Program-made: the position numbers and the translations under genes
Origin: Lachnospiraceae bacterium
GTDB lineage: Bacteria; Bacillota; Clostridia; Lachnospirales; Lachnospiraceae
Direction: 5' to 3'
Length of the DNA stretch: 58,173 bases
Assembly (NCBI GenBank): GCA_017397645.1
Contig: JAFQIE010000029.1
Coordinates: 1 to 58,173, forward strand
Notes under the pieces: model-generated
Database searches by the model: none
What the model was told of the DNA's origin: nothing
Seen by the model: only the letters and a program-made list of their open reading frames with translations
Shown: positions 377 through 21,334 of the stretch, in pieces
How the letters are laid out: each line of letters starts with the position of its first letter
Position numbering within the stretch: position 1 is the stretch's first letter

Positions 377-448
377 GGTACGATAGCCAAGTGGTAAGGC
401 CCCGGTCTGCAACACCGTTATTCGCCGGTTCAAATCCGGCTCGTACCT
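377..448 (+). tRNA. tRNA-Cys (anticodon GCA)
   Basis: The acceptor GGTACGA pairs with TCGTACC, the T arm reads GCCGGTTCAAATCCGGC, and the anticodon loop contains GCA (cysteine). The short D loop is usual for tRNA-Cys. Discriminator T; CCA not encoded. It is the last gene of the rRNA/tRNA transcript and a terminator follows within a few bases. Confidence 0.96.
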
Positions 449-450
449 CT

Positions 451-486
451 AAAATCTCGAGTGTAAATACACTCGGGATTTTTTAT
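451..486 (+). terminator. Rho-independent terminator of the rRNA/tRNA operon
   Basis: An inverted repeat (AATCTCGAGTGT and ACACTCGGGATT around an AAAT loop) is followed by a T-run. It sits two bases after tRNA-Cys and should end the ribosomal transcript. Confidence 0.9.
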
Positions 487-510
487 TTTACCTAAATATT
501 ATTGACTGTA

Positions 511-539
511 TTGACTTCAATTTTTAGTACAAGTACAAT
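511..539 (+). promoter_or_regulatory. Sigma-A type promoter upstream of the first AraC gene
   Basis: TTGACT at 511-516 and TACAAT at 534-539 are separated by exactly 17 bases. It is the only good promoter between the tRNA terminator and the AraC gene at 661, so it probably drives the six-gene operon and/or the short structured leader that follows. Confidence 0.7.
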
Positions 540-548
540 TACAATAAA

Positions 549-628
549 TACCACAAAATTCTTGTTGAAGAATATTTTGGTATTGATGAAAAACATTACA
601 GATTTACACGCAAAGATGCGTTTTTTAT
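549..628 (+). other. Structured leader or candidate small RNA before the AraC operon
   Basis: Just downstream of the promoter there is a long imperfect hairpin (TACCACAAAATTCTT against AAGAATATTTTGGTA, 549-587). A short hairpin (ACGCA/TGCGT, 608-621) followed by six T then completes a weak terminator. This order, promoter then hairpin then short terminator, fits an attenuated leader or a short transcript of about 80 bases. The terminator stem is only 5 bp. I recognise no known RNA family. Confidence 0.4.
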
Positions 629-660
629 AATCAAATTGTAAGGTAAGGTGGAGGTAAGCG

Positions 661-1566
661 ATGAAGACCTATCTTCGGCATCGAATCAGCAATGTCATTG
701 ATGTGAAAGAGTTGATTGCTTTGGAACTTCTGGATTTTGAAGGGAAATACCGGAATTATGTGGAGACGCATGACTTTTGGGAAATTTGTTATGTGACCAA
801 GGGCGAAATTACGCTTTTTTTGGATGAAAAAGAGGTGACTGTCAGAGAGCATGAATTGGTGCTTGTTTCTCCCAATAGAAAGCATTCTTATTATTCTGAA
901 AAAGGGAATGAAAATCAGGCCTTTGTCGTTTGCTTTGACAGTTTTTCCCAAGCACTTAACGCCATAAGCGATCATGTTTTTGCAGAGGACAGCTTACAGT
1001 ATGGGTGCATGGAAAAGATTATGGAAGAAAGTGCAACAACCTTTCACATGAACGATAAGGAACACTTAGAGGTTTTGGACGCACCGCGTTTTGGAGGCCA
1101 GCAGGTGCTGTTGTTACAGTTGGAGTATTTGTTGATTGGTCTGGTTCGCAGAATGAGCGTCGAAAAAAACTCTGATATTGTATTTTTCAGTGATGAAAAC
1201 TTCTATGTGGATCTGGTCAATGCCATTGCCAGGTTTCTTCGTGAAAATGTGTCTCAAAAGATAACACTGGACGAAATTTGCACGAAGTTCAATTACTCAA
1301 AGTCCTTTATATGCAAGATTTTCAAGAAGGAAAAAGGTGTGACGGTAATCGCGTATTTTAATTCCCTGAAAGTCGAAGAGGCCAAGAGACTGTTAACGGA
1401 AAGCACACATTCTGTATCGCATATTGCGGATCTTTGTGGGTATCGGGAAGTGAAATATTTTGACACTATTTTCAAAAAACATACAGGAACTTCACCTGTG
1501 ACCTTTCGTAAGCTTACAACAAATCACAGAAATCAGGAGGCACGGTATGAGTTGTCAAAGAATTGA
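661..1566 (+). CDS. AraC family transcriptional regulator
   Basis: A 301-residue regulator. Residues about 20-105 form a cupin-like sensor domain with the typical short beta-strand pattern and a PNRKHSYY stretch. Residues about 195-290 carry the two helix-turn-helix units of the AraC/XylS DNA-binding domain (ITLDEICTKFNYSKSF, then VSHIADLCGYRE). The start at 661 follows the Shine-Dalgarno GGTGGAGG. Its last 20 bases overlap the next gene, so the regulator is probably translated together with the operon it controls. The inducer is unknown; cupin-type AraC proteins usually sense small sugars or their derivatives. Confidence 0.9.
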   Translation: MKTYLRHRISNVIDVKELIALELLDFEGKYRNYVETHDFWEICYVTKGEITLFLDEKEVTVREHELVLVSPNRKHSYYSEKGNENQAFVVCFDSFSQALNAISDHVFAEDSLQYGCMEKIMEESATTFHMNDKEHLEVLDAPRFGGQQVLLLQLEYLLIGLVRRMSVEKNSDIVFFSDENFYVDLVNAIARFLRENVSQKITLDEICTKFNYSKSFICKIFKKEKGVTVIAYFNSLKVEEAKRLLTESTHSVSHIADLCGYREVKYFDTIFKKHTGTSPVTFRKLTTNHRNQEARYELSKN

Positions 1567-2740
1567 AGCAAAAGAATATCTTCAGAGAGTAAAGGCGCTT
1601 CGGGCAAAAATGGCAGAAGCAAATGTGGATTTGGTGGTTGGTTTTTCCAATTTGCTTGAAATAGCAATTGTCCGTTATTATTGTGGGTTTGCACCGGTAA
1701 ATGAAAGCTCCGCCATTGTTATTCCCGCAGAGGGGGAAGTGATTGTCTGCAGTGGGCAGGCATCCTACGATTATTGCCTCGTGCAGAATGCCTTGCCGGA
1801 TAGCCGCATTGCGATACTCCCTGAAATCGGCGAGGTCAGTGGATTTGAGTATGATACAGAGGGCCAGTTAGAATTTGAGGAATTATTTAAGGAAGTGAAG
1901 GCGGCACACCCGAATGTAAAGAGAATTGGCTTTATCGGCAGATTGATCTTCCCTTCCATTATTATGGGCAAGTTAAAAAAGGTTTTTTCCGATGCTGAAA
2001 TAGTGGATTTTGATGATGTGCATTACGAGCAGAGAATCCGCAAAAGCTCCGCTGAAATTGAGCTATTAAAAGAAAACTGGAGTATGGTATCCACTATGTT
2101 TGAAAATGTAATGCCTAAGATTCAGGTTGGCATGACGGAGAGACATGTGGAAGGTATGTTTGAAGCGGAAATGATGCGCCTGGGTGCGGAAAGCTATGTT
2201 CAGGCATTTGCACCGATGGTGGCTACAGGATCGCAGAATTCATACATCAGTATGTGCAGAAATACCATGCGTCAGATAGGCGAAAGTGAAATTATCAACA
2301 TTGCAGCAGGTGTCTGCTATGAAGGCTATAATGGTATCATCTGCAGTCCGCTGGTTTTGGGCAAAATCCCGCAGAAGATAAAGGATGCGGTAATGTGTGC
2401 CTATGATGCACTAAATTATGCGTCAGCGAAAATGATTCCCGGCACGCCCTGCGATGTGGTGCTGAATGCGTATACCGAATACCTGACGAAATATGGTTAC
2501 ATTGATTATTGCCCTTATGGAAGTCTGCACAGCACCGGTATGTTGGAGTGTGAGGCCCCGGTGTTTACTGTGGGCAATAAGCGGGTAATCGAAGAGAATA
2601 TGGCGATTTGTATCGATGCATATTTCAAGGGTATGGAGTGGGGCTCCTTCCGTGTGGAAGATTGTTATTTAATCACGGACAAGGGCGCACAGCGCATGAC
2701 CACATACAATGATAAAGCGATTCCGGAGATTTTCGGATAA
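1547..2740 (+). CDS. M24 (creatinase/prolidase) family protein, metal site degenerate
   Basis: A 397-residue protein of the aminopeptidase P/creatinase superfamily: an N-terminal creatinase-like domain (about 10-155) and a C-terminal pita-bread domain (about 160-395). In metal-dependent members five residues (D, D, H, E, E) bind two metals. Here the two Asp positions read N (INIAAG) and G (GYNGII), the H is kept in LHSTGM, the first Glu is Asp (CIDAY), and the last Glu is kept in RVED. This pattern argues for a creatinase-like, non-metallo hydrolase, or a lyase, rather than a peptidase. The start overlaps the AraC gene and has the Shine-Dalgarno AGGAGGC. The substrate is unknown. Confidence 0.8.
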   Translation: MSCQRIEAKEYLQRVKALRAKMAEANVDLVVGFSNLLEIAIVRYYCGFAPVNESSAIVIPAEGEVIVCSGQASYDYCLVQNALPDSRIAILPEIGEVSGFEYDTEGQLEFEELFKEVKAAHPNVKRIGFIGRLIFPSIIMGKLKKVFSDAEIVDFDDVHYEQRIRKSSAEIELLKENWSMVSTMFENVMPKIQVGMTERHVEGMFEAEMMRLGAESYVQAFAPMVATGSQNSYISMCRNTMRQIGESEIINIAAGVCYEGYNGIICSPLVLGKIPQKIKDAVMCAYDALNYASAKMIPGTPCDVVLNAYTEYLTKYGYIDYCPYGSLHSTGMLECEAPVFTVGNKRVIEENMAICIDAYFKGMEWGSFRVEDCYLITDKGAQRMTTYNDKAIPEIFG

Positions 2741-17225: not shown

Positions 17226-17267
17226 AAGAGAGACATTTTCAAGCGAAAATGTCTCTCATCTTTTTGT
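17226..17267. terminator. Bidirectional terminator between dnaB and ferredoxin gene
   Basis: GAGAGACATTTTC and GAAAATGTCTCTC form a perfect 13-bp stem with an AAGC loop. There is a T-run after it on the plus strand and A-run before it, so it can stop transcription from both directions. Confidence 0.93.
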
Positions 17268-17269
17268 GA

Positions 17270-17440
17270 TTATTCTTCTTCGATAGCACCTACAGGGCAC
17301 TGACCTGCACAAGCACCACAACTGATGCACTTGTCGGGATCGATTTCAAATTTACCATCGCCCATGCTGATAGCGCCTACGGGGCACTGTGCTTCACAAG
17401 CACCACATGCTACACAAGTATCGTTGATAACGAATGCCAT
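17270..17440 (-). CDS. 2[4Fe-4S] ferredoxin
   Basis: A 56-residue ferredoxin starting MAFVINDTCVACGACEAQ. It has two CxxCxxCxxxCP clusters in an internal duplication (ACGACEAQCPVGAI and SCGACAGQCPVGAI), as in clostridial ferredoxins. It carries electrons in anaerobic metabolism. The ribosome-binding site is AGGAGG. It lies immediately downstream of pflA on the same strand, with an 80-base gap, so it could supply the electron that the radical-SAM activase needs; that link is inference. Confidence 0.95.
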   Translation of the reverse strand: MAFVINDTCVACGACEAQCPVGAISMGDGKFEIDPDKCISCGACAGQCPVGAIEEE

Positions 17441-17532: not shown

Positions 17533-18294
17533 TTATTTCGCTTCCATTTCCGCCCTTCTTGCACGAATACCATTAAGAATTGCCTGCTTCTTATCTAATA
17601 AGAGTTCTTTATCCATAGGAGGCACACCCTTTAATTTGTATTCCATTCCGAGAGCTTCATACTTCTTTTCTCCCATAGTGTGGTAGGGTAAAACATCCAA
17701 GGCTTTCAGGTTGTGCAGTGCTCCTATAAAGTAGCCCAAATCATACAAGTATTTTTCGTCATCTGTAAGACCGGGTACTACTACGTGGCGAATCCACATA
17801 TCCACATTTTTTTCATTCAGATATTCTGCAAATTTCAGAATATTGTGGTTGGGATGCTGGGTAAGTTCTTTGTGCTTTTCAGGATCAATATGCTTGATGT
17901 CGAGCATCACCAGGTCTGTCAAAGGCATTAGCTTATCTAACTTTTCCATGAAGTAGGGGTTCTCGGGGTTATACATAATACCGGAACTGTCAATGCATGT
18001 GTGAATGCCCTTTTCCTTCGCCAACGAAAACAATTCGATCAGGAAATCCACCTGCATCAAAGGTTCTCCGCCGGTTACCGTAAGACCGCCACCGTTGGCG
18101 TAGAAGGGTTTGTTTCTTTCGTATTGTTCTATGATGTAGGCCGGTTCCATGAGTTTACCACCTTTCACATCCCAGGTGTCGGGATTGTGGCAGTACGCAC
18201 AACGCATGGGGCAACCCTGGGTAAACACCACAAAGCGAGTGCCGGGACCGTCTACTGTACCAAAACTTTCTAATGAGTGAATTCTACCTTGCAT
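17533..18294 (-). CDS. pflA: Pyruvate formate-lyase activating enzyme
   Basis: A 253-residue radical-SAM enzyme that installs the glycyl radical on PFL. The cluster-binding CPMRCAYCHNPDTW (CxxxCxxC) is near residues 29-42, followed by GGGLTVTGGEP. The length and the start MQGRIHSLESFG with VDGPGTRF are typical of PflA. It lies 69 bases downstream of the detached glycyl-radical domain gene, separated by a hairpin that may let only part of the transcript through. Confidence 0.96.
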   Translation of the reverse strand: MQGRIHSLESFGTVDGPGTRFVVFTQGCPMRCAYCHNPDTWDVKGGKLMEPAYIIEQYERNKPFYANGGGLTVTGGEPLMQVDFLIELFSLAKEKGIHTCIDSSGIMYNPENPYFMEKLDKLMPLTDLVMLDIKHIDPEKHKELTQHPNHNILKFAEYLNEKNVDMWIRHVVVPGLTDDEKYLYDLGYFIGALHNLKALDVLPYHTMGEKKYEALGMEYKLKGVPPMDKELLLDKKQAILNGIRARRAEMEAK

Positions 18295-18308
18295 TTTTAA
18301 ATCCTTTC

Positions 18309-18339
18309 AAAAAAAGCGGGAAGATAACTTCCCGCTTTT
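18309..18339 (-). terminator. Terminator between the PFL pieces and pflA
   Basis: On the minus strand AAAAGCGGGAAG and CTTCCCGCTTTT form a 12-bp stem with a TTAT loop followed by T's. It could end the pflB transcript or reduce pflA expression relative to PFL. Confidence 0.88.
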
Positions 18340-18363
18340 GACTAAACTGAATCGAACTTAAGA

Positions 18364-18606
18364 TTAGATGGACTCGTGGAAGGTACGAGAAATAACATCT
18401 GCCTGCTGTTCGGGAGTCAACTTAATGAAGTTAACTGCGTATCCGGATACACGGATGGTCAGCTGGGGATATTTCTCAGGATGCTGCTGAGCGTCCAACA
18501 GAGTTTCTCTATTCAATACGTTTACGTTCAAATGATGGCCGCCCTTCTGGCTATATCCATCTAACAAGTTTACAAGATTATCAACCTGTGCGGAATTAAC
18601 TGTCAT
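18364..18606 (-). CDS. Detached glycyl-radical domain of pyruvate formate-lyase (GrcA-like)
   Basis: An 80-residue protein equal to the C-terminal end of normal PFL. It has [24 protein letters not shown], then [13 protein letters not shown] with the radical glycine, and ends near FHESI. In E. coli PFL the same sequence lies at about residues 680-760 of one chain; GrcA (YfiD) is a free spare copy. Here the catalytic chain lacks this part, so this protein is probably the required radical subunit and not just a spare. It has its own AGGAGG and starts 36 bases after the 67-residue gene. Confidence 0.93.
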
Positions 18607-18642
18607 GATTTTATCCTCCTTGATTTTTATTTAATTATTAGA

Positions 18643-18846
18643 TTACTTAAAGTCATCCAAACCTTGTTCCAGGGTGGGGACACTACAAGCCAGTGGAGTT
18701 CTGGAACAATCGGTGCATCCCAGAGTCTGTACCTCTCTGGATTTCTCAGCATCGTCGGTACATTCCACATTGATGTGGCCTACGCCGTCTGTCATGCCTG
18801 CGTCTAACATTTTCACCAAGTCGTCAATCATCATCTTCTGATCCAT
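18643..18846 (-). CDS. 67-residue Cys-rich protein related to the PFL C-terminal region
   Basis: A 67-residue protein lying between the PFL core and its radical domain. Its first half (IDDLVKMLDAGMTDGVGHINVE) aligns with the start of the radical domain ([11 protein letters not shown], then GHHLNVN), but the radical motif RVSGYAV is missing. Instead there is a Cys-rich tail with three cysteines after the N-terminal one, LGCTDCSRTPLAC. It has a strong AGGAGG and good coding character. I infer a paralogue that lost the radical segment; the role is unknown and could be assembly, redox or metal-related. Confidence 0.75.
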   Translation of the reverse strand: MDQKMMIDDLVKMLDAGMTDGVGHINVECTDDAEKSREVQTLGCTDCSRTPLACSVPTLEQGLDDFK

Positions 18847-18878
18847 AGTGCCTCCTCCTTTCAGGAATTTTATTTAGA

Positions 18879-20918
18879 TTATTTATTCAAGTCTAACTCG
18901 ATGTCGCCAGCGAAGATTTGGTCTTCCTTACCAAGAGCACCGGGAATGATGGTGAAGGTATTGGAGATACCGTCCTGAGCATCTACGAAAGGAAGCTTAG
19001 AAACGGAAGACAAGCTTGCTACTGCACCATGAGTATCACGTCCGTGCATGGGGTTAGCACCGGGAGCAAAAGGCTGGCCTTTCTTACGTCCGTCGGGCGT
19101 GTTACCGGTTGCCTTACCATAGGTTACGTTGGAAGTAATGGTAAGGATAGAAGTGGTGGGAACACCATTTCTGTAGGTGTGATGTCTTCTGATAGCGGTC
19201 ATAAACTTATGAACGATATCCTGTGCAATAGAGTCTACGCGGTCATCGTCGTTACCATATTTAGGGAAGTCGCCGGTGGTCTTGAAGTCAACGATTACGC
19301 CGTCTTCGTCACGAACAACTTCTACCTTAGCGTACTTAATAGCGGACAAGGAGTCAGCTACGATGGAAAGACCTGCAACACCGGTTGCGAAGTATCTCTT
19401 AACATCTCTGTCATGAAGAGCCATCTCTGCTCTCTCGTAGCAGTACTTGTCATGCATATAGTGGATGATGTTCAAGGTGTTTACATAAACATCTGCCTGC
19501 CACTCGATCATGTCTACGAATTTATCCATTACATCGTCGAAGTCAAGAACGTCGCCTTCTACAGGACGATACTTAGGACCAACCTGCTTCTTGGAAACTT
19601 CGTCAACACCACCGTTCAAAGCGTAAAGCAAACATTTTGCAAGGTTTGCACGAGCACCAAAGAACTGCATTTCCTTACCGATTACCATGGAAGATACGCA
19701 ACATGCGATACCATAGTCGTCGCCGTGATCAGGTCTCATCAACTCGTCGTTCTCGTACTGGATGGAAGAGGTCAGGATGGACATCTTTGCGCAGTACTTC
19801 TTCCAAGCTTCAGGAAGTCTGGGAGACCAAAGTACAGTCAGGTTAGGCTCGGGAGATGCACCAAGGTTTGTCAAGGTGTGCAGATAACGGAAACTCATTC
19901 TGGTAACCATAGGTCTGCCGTCTACGCCAACCCCAGCCAAAGACTCGGTAACCCATACGGGATCGCCTGCAAAAATCTGGTTGTATTCAGGAGTACGAGC
20001 GAATTTGATCATTCTCAGCTTCATGATGAAGTGGTCAACAAATTCCTGAATCTCCTGCTCGGTAAAGGTACCGTTCTTCAAGTCTCTCTCTGCGTAGCAG
20101 TCAAGGAAGGTGGAAGTACGTCCAAGGGACATAGCAGCACCGTTCTGTTCTTTTACTGCGCAAAGGTAACCGAAGTAGGTCCACTGAATAGCTTCTTTTA
20201 CGTTTGCTGCGGGCTTGGAAATATCGCAACCATAGGTAGCAGCCATTTCCTTCATCATCTTCAAAGCAACGATCTGCTCAGAGATTTCTTCGCGAAGACG
20301 GATAACGTCATCAGTCATTACCTTGCCGGTAGAATCCTTCTGGGTCAATTTGTCCTCGATCAATCTGTCAATACCGTACAGAGCGATACGTCTGTAGTCA
20401 CCGATGATACGGCCACGGCCATAAGCATCAGGAAGACCGGTAATGATGTGGGAAGAACGGCAAGCTCTCATCTCTGCATTGTAAGCGTCGAAACAACCTG
20501 CGTTGTGTGTCTTTCTGTGAGTAGAGAAGAACTCGGAAATCTCGGGATCTACCTCATATCCGTTGTCGGAGCAAGCCTTCTCTGCCATACGGATACCGCC
20601 GTAAGGCTGCAAGGAACGCTTGAAGGGCTTGTCAGTCTGGAAACCAACGATGGTTTCTTTGCTCTTGTCCAAGTAACCGGGGCCATGAGAAGTGATAGTA
20701 GAAACAACCTTGGTGTCCATATCGAGAACGCCGCCTGCTTCTCTCTCTGCCTTCTGAAGCTCAAGTACCTGTGCCCATAAGTCTTTTGTGTTCTGTGTAG
20801 CTTCAGCAAGGAAACTTTCATCTCCATCATAAGGATGATAGTTTTTCTGGATGAAATCACGTACGTTGATTTCACTTTCCCATTTGCCGGCTACGAAATC
20901 GGTCCATTCTGGTCTCAT
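18879..20918 (-). CDS. pflB: Pyruvate formate-lyase catalytic core (lacks glycyl-radical domain)
   Basis: A 679-residue chain that matches E. coli PflB over its first 680 residues or so and then stops. The catalytic Cys pair is present in [11 protein letters not shown], with the conserved [20 protein letters not shown] after it. It ends just after [15 protein letters not shown], exactly where the radical domain begins in the single-chain enzyme (about 760 residues). PFL converts pyruvate and CoA to acetyl-CoA and formate anaerobically. The radical glycine must come from the separate 80-residue protein encoded two genes downstream. The Shine-Dalgarno is AGGAGG. Confidence 0.95.
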
Positions 20919-20988: not shown

Positions 20989-21017
20989 ATTATATGTAAA
21001 ACGTAAGTTTCAGTCAA
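20989..21017 (-). promoter_or_regulatory. Promoter of the pfl operon
   Basis: On the minus strand TTGACT (21012-21017) and TATAAT (20989-20994) are 17 bases apart, near consensus. A 5' leader of about 65 AT-rich bases precedes pflB. I see no clear Rex or FNR site. Confidence 0.85.
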
Positions 21018-21139: not shown

Positions 21140-21334
21140 ATGGCACAAGTTACAAAGGAAATGACAATTGGCGAGATTTTGCGTGCAAACCCCAATGTTG
21201 CACCTGTTCTTTTGGAAGCAGGAATGCATTGCCTGGGTTGCCCTTCCGCACAGGGAGAGTCTTTAGAGGAAGCTGCAATGGTACATGGCTTGGATATTGA
21301 TGCTTTGATGGCAGCAATTGCGGCGGTAGAATAA
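21140..21334 (+). CDS. DUF1858 domain protein
   Basis: A 64-residue protein made of a single DUF1858 domain: [27 protein letters not shown]. The paired cysteines in HCLGCPS are typical and resemble the N-terminal domain of ScdA/RIC-type proteins and hybrid-cluster-associated proteins. A role in iron-sulfur or redox chemistry is possible but not proved. AAGGAGG lies before the ATG. It is divergent from the PFL operon, so both may respond to the anaerobic state. Confidence 0.9.

Follow-up and report, generated by a model that had tools for sequence, protein, structure and literature searches.

The window, that is, the whole stretch of 58,173 nucleotides that was analyzed, comes from a Lachnospiraceae bacterium and carries on its minus strand the gene for a catalytic chain of pyruvate formate-lyase (PFL), 679 amino acids long and without the glycyl-radical domain (GRD) (positions 18879 to 20918). 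It is followed by the gene for a protein of 67 amino acids, here called P67, that bears the dithiol tail GCTDCSRTPLACSVPTLEQGLDD and has no glycine loop (18643 to 18846), and by the gene for a glycyl-radical subunit of 80 amino acids, GrcA3, whose RVSGYAV motif contains Gly55 (18364 to 18606). The coordinates and lengths given for these three open reading frames by the first-pass annotation were exact, and Shine-Dalgarno sequences, of which it had seen the one before the radical-domain gene, could be read as AGGAGG before each of the three genes. Further along the same strand lie the genes for PflA, the radical-SAM activating enzyme (17533 to 18294; 299.4 bits against TIGR02493, exceeding the cut-off of 231.75), and, 3' of pflA, for a ferredoxin-like protein of 56 amino acids (17270 to 17440), recognized by CxxCxxCxxxC motifs read in its translation. 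The divergent neighbor of the catalytic-chain gene, on the plus strand (21140 to 21334), encodes a DUF1858/hybrid-cluster-associated redox disulfide protein of 64 amino acids, identified by Pfam and NCBIfam matches, which we regard as a candidate member of the system.

A sigma-70-like promoter, TTGACT-17-TATAAT, is predicted on the minus strand 5' of the catalytic-chain gene (20989 to 21017); it matches the consensus at 11 of 12 positions, and the consensus scan found 11 such sites in the region against 7.2 expected. Between the GrcA3 gene and pflA, comparison with 200 shuffled sequences revealed a hairpin of 12 bp with a U run (18309 to 18339, minus strand), the stretch from 18296 to 18363 having a folding energy of -24.4 kcal/mol (z -5.5). 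This hairpin, which was absent from a simple terminator scan of the region, is a probable terminator or attenuator and could allow the three structural genes to outproduce the activase. A second, terminator-like hairpin past the ferredoxin gene (17228 to 17257, minus strand) is predicted from a consensus match.

The 679-residue chain scored 723.4 bits against PF02901 (cut-off, 24.3) and 1,092.8 bits against TIGR01255, aligning with model positions 2 to 664 of 744; 80 model positions are missing from it, yet the curated cut-off of 994.2 is exceeded. The 80-residue protein covers TIGR01255 positions 664 to 744, and since the two proteins meet at position 664, the chain is broken at the domain border. 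In an alignment with Escherichia coli PFL (1h16), residues 10 to 681 correspond to the 679-residue chain and residues 682 to 758 to the 80-residue chain, whose Gly55, counted through the alignment, falls on Gly734. The claim, made initially from the window alone, that the catalytic chain ends where the radical domain begins thus holds both at border 664 of TIGR01255 and at border 681/682 of 1h16, an alignment of the two chains on a PFL structure having been one of the checks proposed with it. Beyond this border the catalytic chain runs on for 13 residues. The active-site cysteine pair already noticed, C406-C407 in IACCVSSM, was invariant in all 11 aligned sequences; its E. coli counterpart is C418/C419 according to an excerpt of PMC12338860. 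The GRD is thus not part of the 679-residue chain and is encoded by a separate gene. Its product matches PF01228 (positions 52 to 106) and is by score a member of NF038360, the GrcA3 family (162.9 bits against a cut-off of 158). Whereas the family name implies an autonomous cofactor, here the protein is the sole radical domain found for the PFL; the name GrcA3 was not found in the open-license PMC literature.

The genome to which the window belongs is a MAG that is 74.28% complete, and its single PFL-like match is the split locus. Within the genus, P67 is present in 22 of 25 genomes, this one included, and the order truncated PFL-P67-GrcA3 was found in all 22 of these loci as well as in G034, a genome of another family (G and L numbers are sample labels for genomes and loci). 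Within the fetched stretches, PflA came next in 18 and the ferredoxin in 13 of the 22 same-genus loci, and whole-chain identity among relatives was 85 to 94%. In six near-complete genomes of the genus, the split PFL was the sole PFL match (G002, G015, and G016 at E 1e-50; G013, G223, and G238 at E 1e-150). In G006, a 99%-complete same-genus genome in one contig, the PFL is fused (755 amino acids, 63% identical) and P67 is lacking, while G020 and G024 (80 and 70% complete), likewise of the genus and without P67, gave no PFL match at E 1e-50. A second intact PFL gene, the search for which had been suggested as a check, was found at the thresholds used neither in the 74%-complete MAG nor in the six near-complete relatives, and the sole split match in the latter argues against both a frameshift and a further intact gene. 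A third Gly_radical match in the own genome, an open frame of 45 amino acids with the motif RVRVTGYSEYF on contig C23 (L003, about 1450 to 1584, minus strand), was rejected as a part of the system; it is probably what is left of a different radical enzyme.

Two samples were used to determine how the split is distributed. At order level, 392 genomes were searched and 277 had a PFL at E 1e-150; at class level, 151 of 291 genomes had a PFL. The split locus is also present in two cultured relatives, Kineothrix alysoides and Acetatifactor muris. PFLs were classed as split when the match reached residue 675 to 679 in a frame that had no room for a radical domain or, on fetching, no sign of one; in fused PFLs, the match ended near residue 664 to 672. 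Among the matches listed, a split PFL occurred in at least 78 of the 277 genomes with a PFL at order level and in at least 10 further genomes, from other orders, at class level. The same split thus came up in related gut bacteria, a survey of relatives having been among the proposed checks. One PFL frame of the class sample (L237 in G610) has an internal stop and reads as two open reading frames. A frameshift or otherwise damaged gene was rejected because the border is identical in at least 78 genomes of the order sample. That GrcA3 is a mere spare part and the short catalytic chain a damaged gene, with another intact PFL doing the work, could appeal to the role of GrcA/YfiD as a spare part in E. 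coli (PMC8683613), to the incompleteness of the own genome, and to G371 and G658, which hold both split and fused forms, but it is exceedingly improbable in view of this shared truncation, of the high whole-chain identity in relatives, and of near-complete same-genus genomes whose one PFL match is the split one. The permanent two-chain PFL proposed by the first-pass annotation is in line with the wide occurrence of the split and with its being the only match in the six near-complete genomes, and judged from these sequences the enzyme is almost certainly an obligate two-chain PFL.

For phylogeny, quick maximum-likelihood trees with a midpoint root were computed from the catalytic parts; the first comprised 79 of 128 different sequences, L237 was left out, and L030 to L109 represent the best 80 of 441 confirmed places, mostly from one family. 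In this tree, every split PFL fell into one clade of 61 rows (SH-aLRT 96), with 5 fused PFLs inside the clade and 18 outside. When 9 class-level rows and 2 PDB chains were added, the split clade grew to 71 rows with a support of 99, and all 65 split rows lay in this single clade, again with 5 fused PFLs nested among them. From their placement, these five look like re-fusions, which would make the split reversible. The swapping of oxygen-damaged radical subunits, initially put forward as the benefit of the split, is reasonable by analogy with E. coli GrcA but may not be the reason why the split is kept, because some members appear to have re-fused. One of the nested fused PFLs, L184 (G397; 424 to 2724, plus strand), has a cysteine-rich stretch, VTCGCEEVTCAVD, between its catalytic part and its radical domain and is likely, from this layout, a tailed catalytic chain re-joined to GrcA3 with the tail retained. 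At L272 (G598, plus strand), a split PFL of 676 amino acids (335 to 2365) is followed by a stop and by a radical protein of 76 amino acids that starts from ATG (2388 to 2618). L272, like the PDB chain 38la, lies near the root of the tree, where placement is poorly defined; it may have branched off early or have been split independently.

The PDB chains 38lb and 38la, both entitled "Formate acetyltransferase," are the closest solved chains to the 679-residue protein (1,124 and 1,090 bits, respectively). Both were missing from the PDB search for the radical domain and look like PFL chains without it, and PDB searches found no P67-like or GrcA3-like chains of these entries. 38lb extends 44 residues beyond the matched part, which ends at its position 695. 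Because 38lb, a PFL chain without the radical domain, falls inside the split clade, the split itself has probably already been recognized by others; 38la might be split by nature or be a construct that was cut. Among the papers listed in searches of the open-license PMC literature, we found none treating a split PFL, which is weak evidence of absence.

The 67-residue gene had been taken for a spacer, and here the initial reading has to be revised: the gene is conserved, GRD derived, and tied to the split. The N-terminal part of P67 (about residues 1 to 30) is homologous to the N terminus of the GRD, as hhalign aligned P67 with GrcA3 over 28 columns at 32% identity (E 2.1e-5). NCBIfam gave a weak match of the window's P67 to the GrcA3 N terminus (E 0.023), and three diverged P67s gave GrcA3 matches at E 2.5e-4 and 4.1e-4 and no match, respectively. 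A wider P67 profile also matched GrcA3s and 30 frames of 742 to 802 amino acids at profile positions of about 2 to 37, and the long-frame matches that were compared turned out to be the radical-domain start of fused PFLs. No Pfam match and no convincing PDB relative of P67 were found, and the RVSGYAV glycine loop was absent from the P67s of both sets shown (12 of 12 and 11 of 11).

In the members read, P67 consists of the N-terminal part, a variable linker, and a tail of the form C-x(4-5)-AC-x2-P[TN]; M1, G23, H24, C47, A53, C54, and P57 were invariant in 11 diverse P67s. Over 65 sequences (2,080 pairs), the whole gene had a pN/pS ratio of 0.17, a rough measure here since synonymous differences are near saturation. 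Within the gene, the ratio fell to 0.06 in the tail, stood at 0.16 in the N-terminal 30 codons, and rose to 0.47 in the linker. A spacer or chance open reading frame was rejected on the basis of these ratios, of the presence of P67 in most same-genus genomes, and of its occurrence in the samples. At least six genomes encode a family of P67 paralogs (L028, 1393 to 1644, minus strand; L029, 1471 to 1728, plus strand; L166 to L170) with the tail GRCDVGSPWAxGTVxNCDAID or a close form, whose sole NCBIfam match was the GrcA3 N terminus (E 0.026). No PFL, GrcA3, or PflA match was found in the stretches examined around them, and given such paralogs, the N-terminal domain of P67 may have other work.

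The first P67 profile matched 63 genomes of the order sample, three of which (G250, G330, and G272) were cross-matches to GrcA3 or to a long PFL frame; the other 60 were all split, 58 according to their PFL rows, G166 according to its locus, and G097 according to the start of its contig. In the class sample, nine genomes matched over most of P67, and the additional ones, G465, G518, and G559, were all split. Across both samples, P67 was present in 63 genomes, and 63 of 63 had a split PFL. In the genus labeled g52 (G355, G376, and G399), P67 is encoded apart from the PFL genes, next to what we take, from the translations, to be proB/proA and a YitT-like gene. The wider P67 profile detected no P67 elsewhere in the 20 split genomes without an adjacent P67, nor in the 5 nested fused genomes.

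Most split PFLs without P67 carry cysteines on the catalytic chain itself. Among the 65 split rows of the tree, 39 have P67 (elsewhere in the genome in the three g52 rows), 24 have a cis tail with at least two cysteines, 2 have neither, and none has both; thus, 24 of the 26 rows without P67 have two or more cysteines at the end of the catalytic chain. Conversely, no cysteine occurs at the end of the catalytic chain in any of the 151 PFL loci adjoining P67 (66 different ends, some genomes being repeated). With L237 and L272 included, the 67 representative split PFLs comprise 39 with P67, 25 with a cysteine tail, 3 with neither, and 0 with both. The P67 motif itself recurs in eight of these 24 tails, such as DCSNGACSTPTLFEGLDNDEE in L231, which tblastn with P67 queries picked up (E 8.7e-5), and also in the tail of L237, outside the tree; another 14 are of the form C-x-CCEP and 2 of other forms, with a loose resemblance to the P67 tail. 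L156 (G212), L238 (G658), and L272 (G598) lack both P67 and a two-cysteine tail; the dithiol is not universal among split PFLs. A single cysteine is found in the PFL tail of L162 (g52), and the P67 frame of G338 stops within the tail, an exception inside the P67 group. Well-supported branches force at least five changes for P67 and at least four for cis tails. P67 was also considered as a precursor peptide, with a cysteine-rich tail behind a leader-like N terminus, but its place in a PFL operon and the existence of cis tails speak against this. As a separate observation, a DUF1858 gene lies within 1,200 nucleotides upstream of PFL in 51 of 66 split loci versus 1 of 20 fused loci, counted where at least 800 nucleotides of upstream sequence were present and with the split loci skewed to one family and including some repeats.

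At the level of sequence, these comparisons establish the split and its conservation, the homology of P67 to the GRD, purifying selection, and the complementarity of cis and trans tails. The mechanism that we propose starts from the 679-residue chain, which would fold the barrel with the catalytic cysteine pair, and GrcA3, which would dock on it as the missing radical domain and supply the glycyl radical in trans. PflA would activate GrcA3, with the neighboring ferredoxin as the likely electron donor. P67 would serve as a third, accessory subunit and descend from a duplicated radical domain; it would retain the N-terminal stretch that packs on the barrel in ordinary PFL, by which it could dock on the catalytic chain, and the dithiol tail would replace the glycine loop. 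Since most lineages without P67 have a cis cysteine tail, the probable target of the tail is the catalytic chain or its empty radical-domain site, and the tail would work at the end of that chain, beside the place where the radical domain docks. We consider it very likely from the comparative evidence that the dithiol tail acts on the two-chain PFL, and the explanation as a whole, an obligate multichain PFL with P67 as its GRD-derived dithiol partner, likely.

The closest known system is E. coli PflB with GrcA/YfiD, which belongs to the same family and in which a separate RVSGYAV protein can complete a PFL without its tail (PMC8683613). There, however, YfiD serves to repair a PFL that is made intact and then cleaved by oxygen, whereas here the chain is encoded without the domain and P67 lies beside it. 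E. coli PFL cut at residue 695 and combined with YfiD reached wild-type activity once activated, but binding was undetectable and activation was 32-fold lower (Andorfer et al. 2021, PMC8683613). Such poor binding and activation make it plausible that a permanent split needs extra parts.

The role of P67 could be read in other ways. If it were a redox-insensitive placeholder, that is, a dummy radical domain that stabilizes the empty catalytic chain and whose tail is incidental, the homology of its N-terminal part to the radical domain would be accounted for, but the tail is the most constrained part of P67, and most lineages without P67 have the tail and no dummy domain; we thus regard this reading as very unlikely. 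P67 and the cis tails might instead bind a metal or an iron-sulfur cluster, making P67 a small structural or electron transfer subunit. Small subunits whose functions are called unclear, some of them with Fe4S4, are known from other glycyl radical enzymes (PMC11194802), the tails are cysteine rich, and a ferredoxin gene lies downstream. Benzylsuccinate synthase and 4-hydroxyphenylacetate decarboxylase have small subunits that resemble P67 in being accessory proteins of glycyl radical enzymes. They differ in holding Fe4S4, whereas P67, compared by sequence through Pfam and PDB searches, is GRD derived and has two invariant cysteines. These two, C47 and C54 in 11 P67s, are too few for a usual cluster unless two chains share one, and P67 has no Pfam or PDB match, which leaves metal binding an unlikely role. 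Somewhat better placed, though still rather improbable, is the view that P67 or the tail helps to dock or recruit PflA or GrcA3, the cysteines being structural: residues 696 to 733 of E. coli PFL and 1 to 60 of YfiD matter for binding (PMC8683613), the split catalytic chain has no equivalent of 696 to 733, and GrcA3 lacks a long YfiD-like N terminus. Docking alone, however, would not require that both cysteines be among the seven invariant residues of P67.

A redox-guard role for the P67 thiols is what we tentatively suggest within the multichain PFL. When GrcA3 is away, P67 would sit at the docking edge, where its thiols could guard or gate the site, either by capping the active-site cysteines reversibly or by quenching a stranded glycyl radical. 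Thiol quenching of PFL radicals is known from an anaerobe; no paper on it was found in the open-license PMC literature. More generally, it is conceivable, as a working idea drawn from the sequence patterns, that in split PFLs a dithiol tail, provided in trans by P67 or in cis on the catalytic chain, serves to cap the radical site reversibly, or to re-reduce it, whenever the radical subunit is absent or oxidized. The DUF1858 protein is a possible redox partner of this tail.

In many fermenting bacteria, acetyl-CoA and formate come in large part from PFL, a classic target of oxygen. As far as our literature searches go, P67 and the cis/trans tail are undescribed, and in an automatic annotation of the operon, the catalytic chain may well appear as a truncated PFL, P67 as a hypothetical protein, and GrcA3 as a spare part. 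With separable PFL chains, as encoded by this clade of Lachnospiraceae and relatives, docking, activation, and replacement of the radical domain would become directly measurable. A GRD-derived partner that is exchanged, in cis or in trans, with a cysteine tail suggests that the radical is protected or controlled at a level that has gone unexamined and, if the proposed role is true, the dithiol tail would give a glycyl radical enzyme a redox guard of its own.
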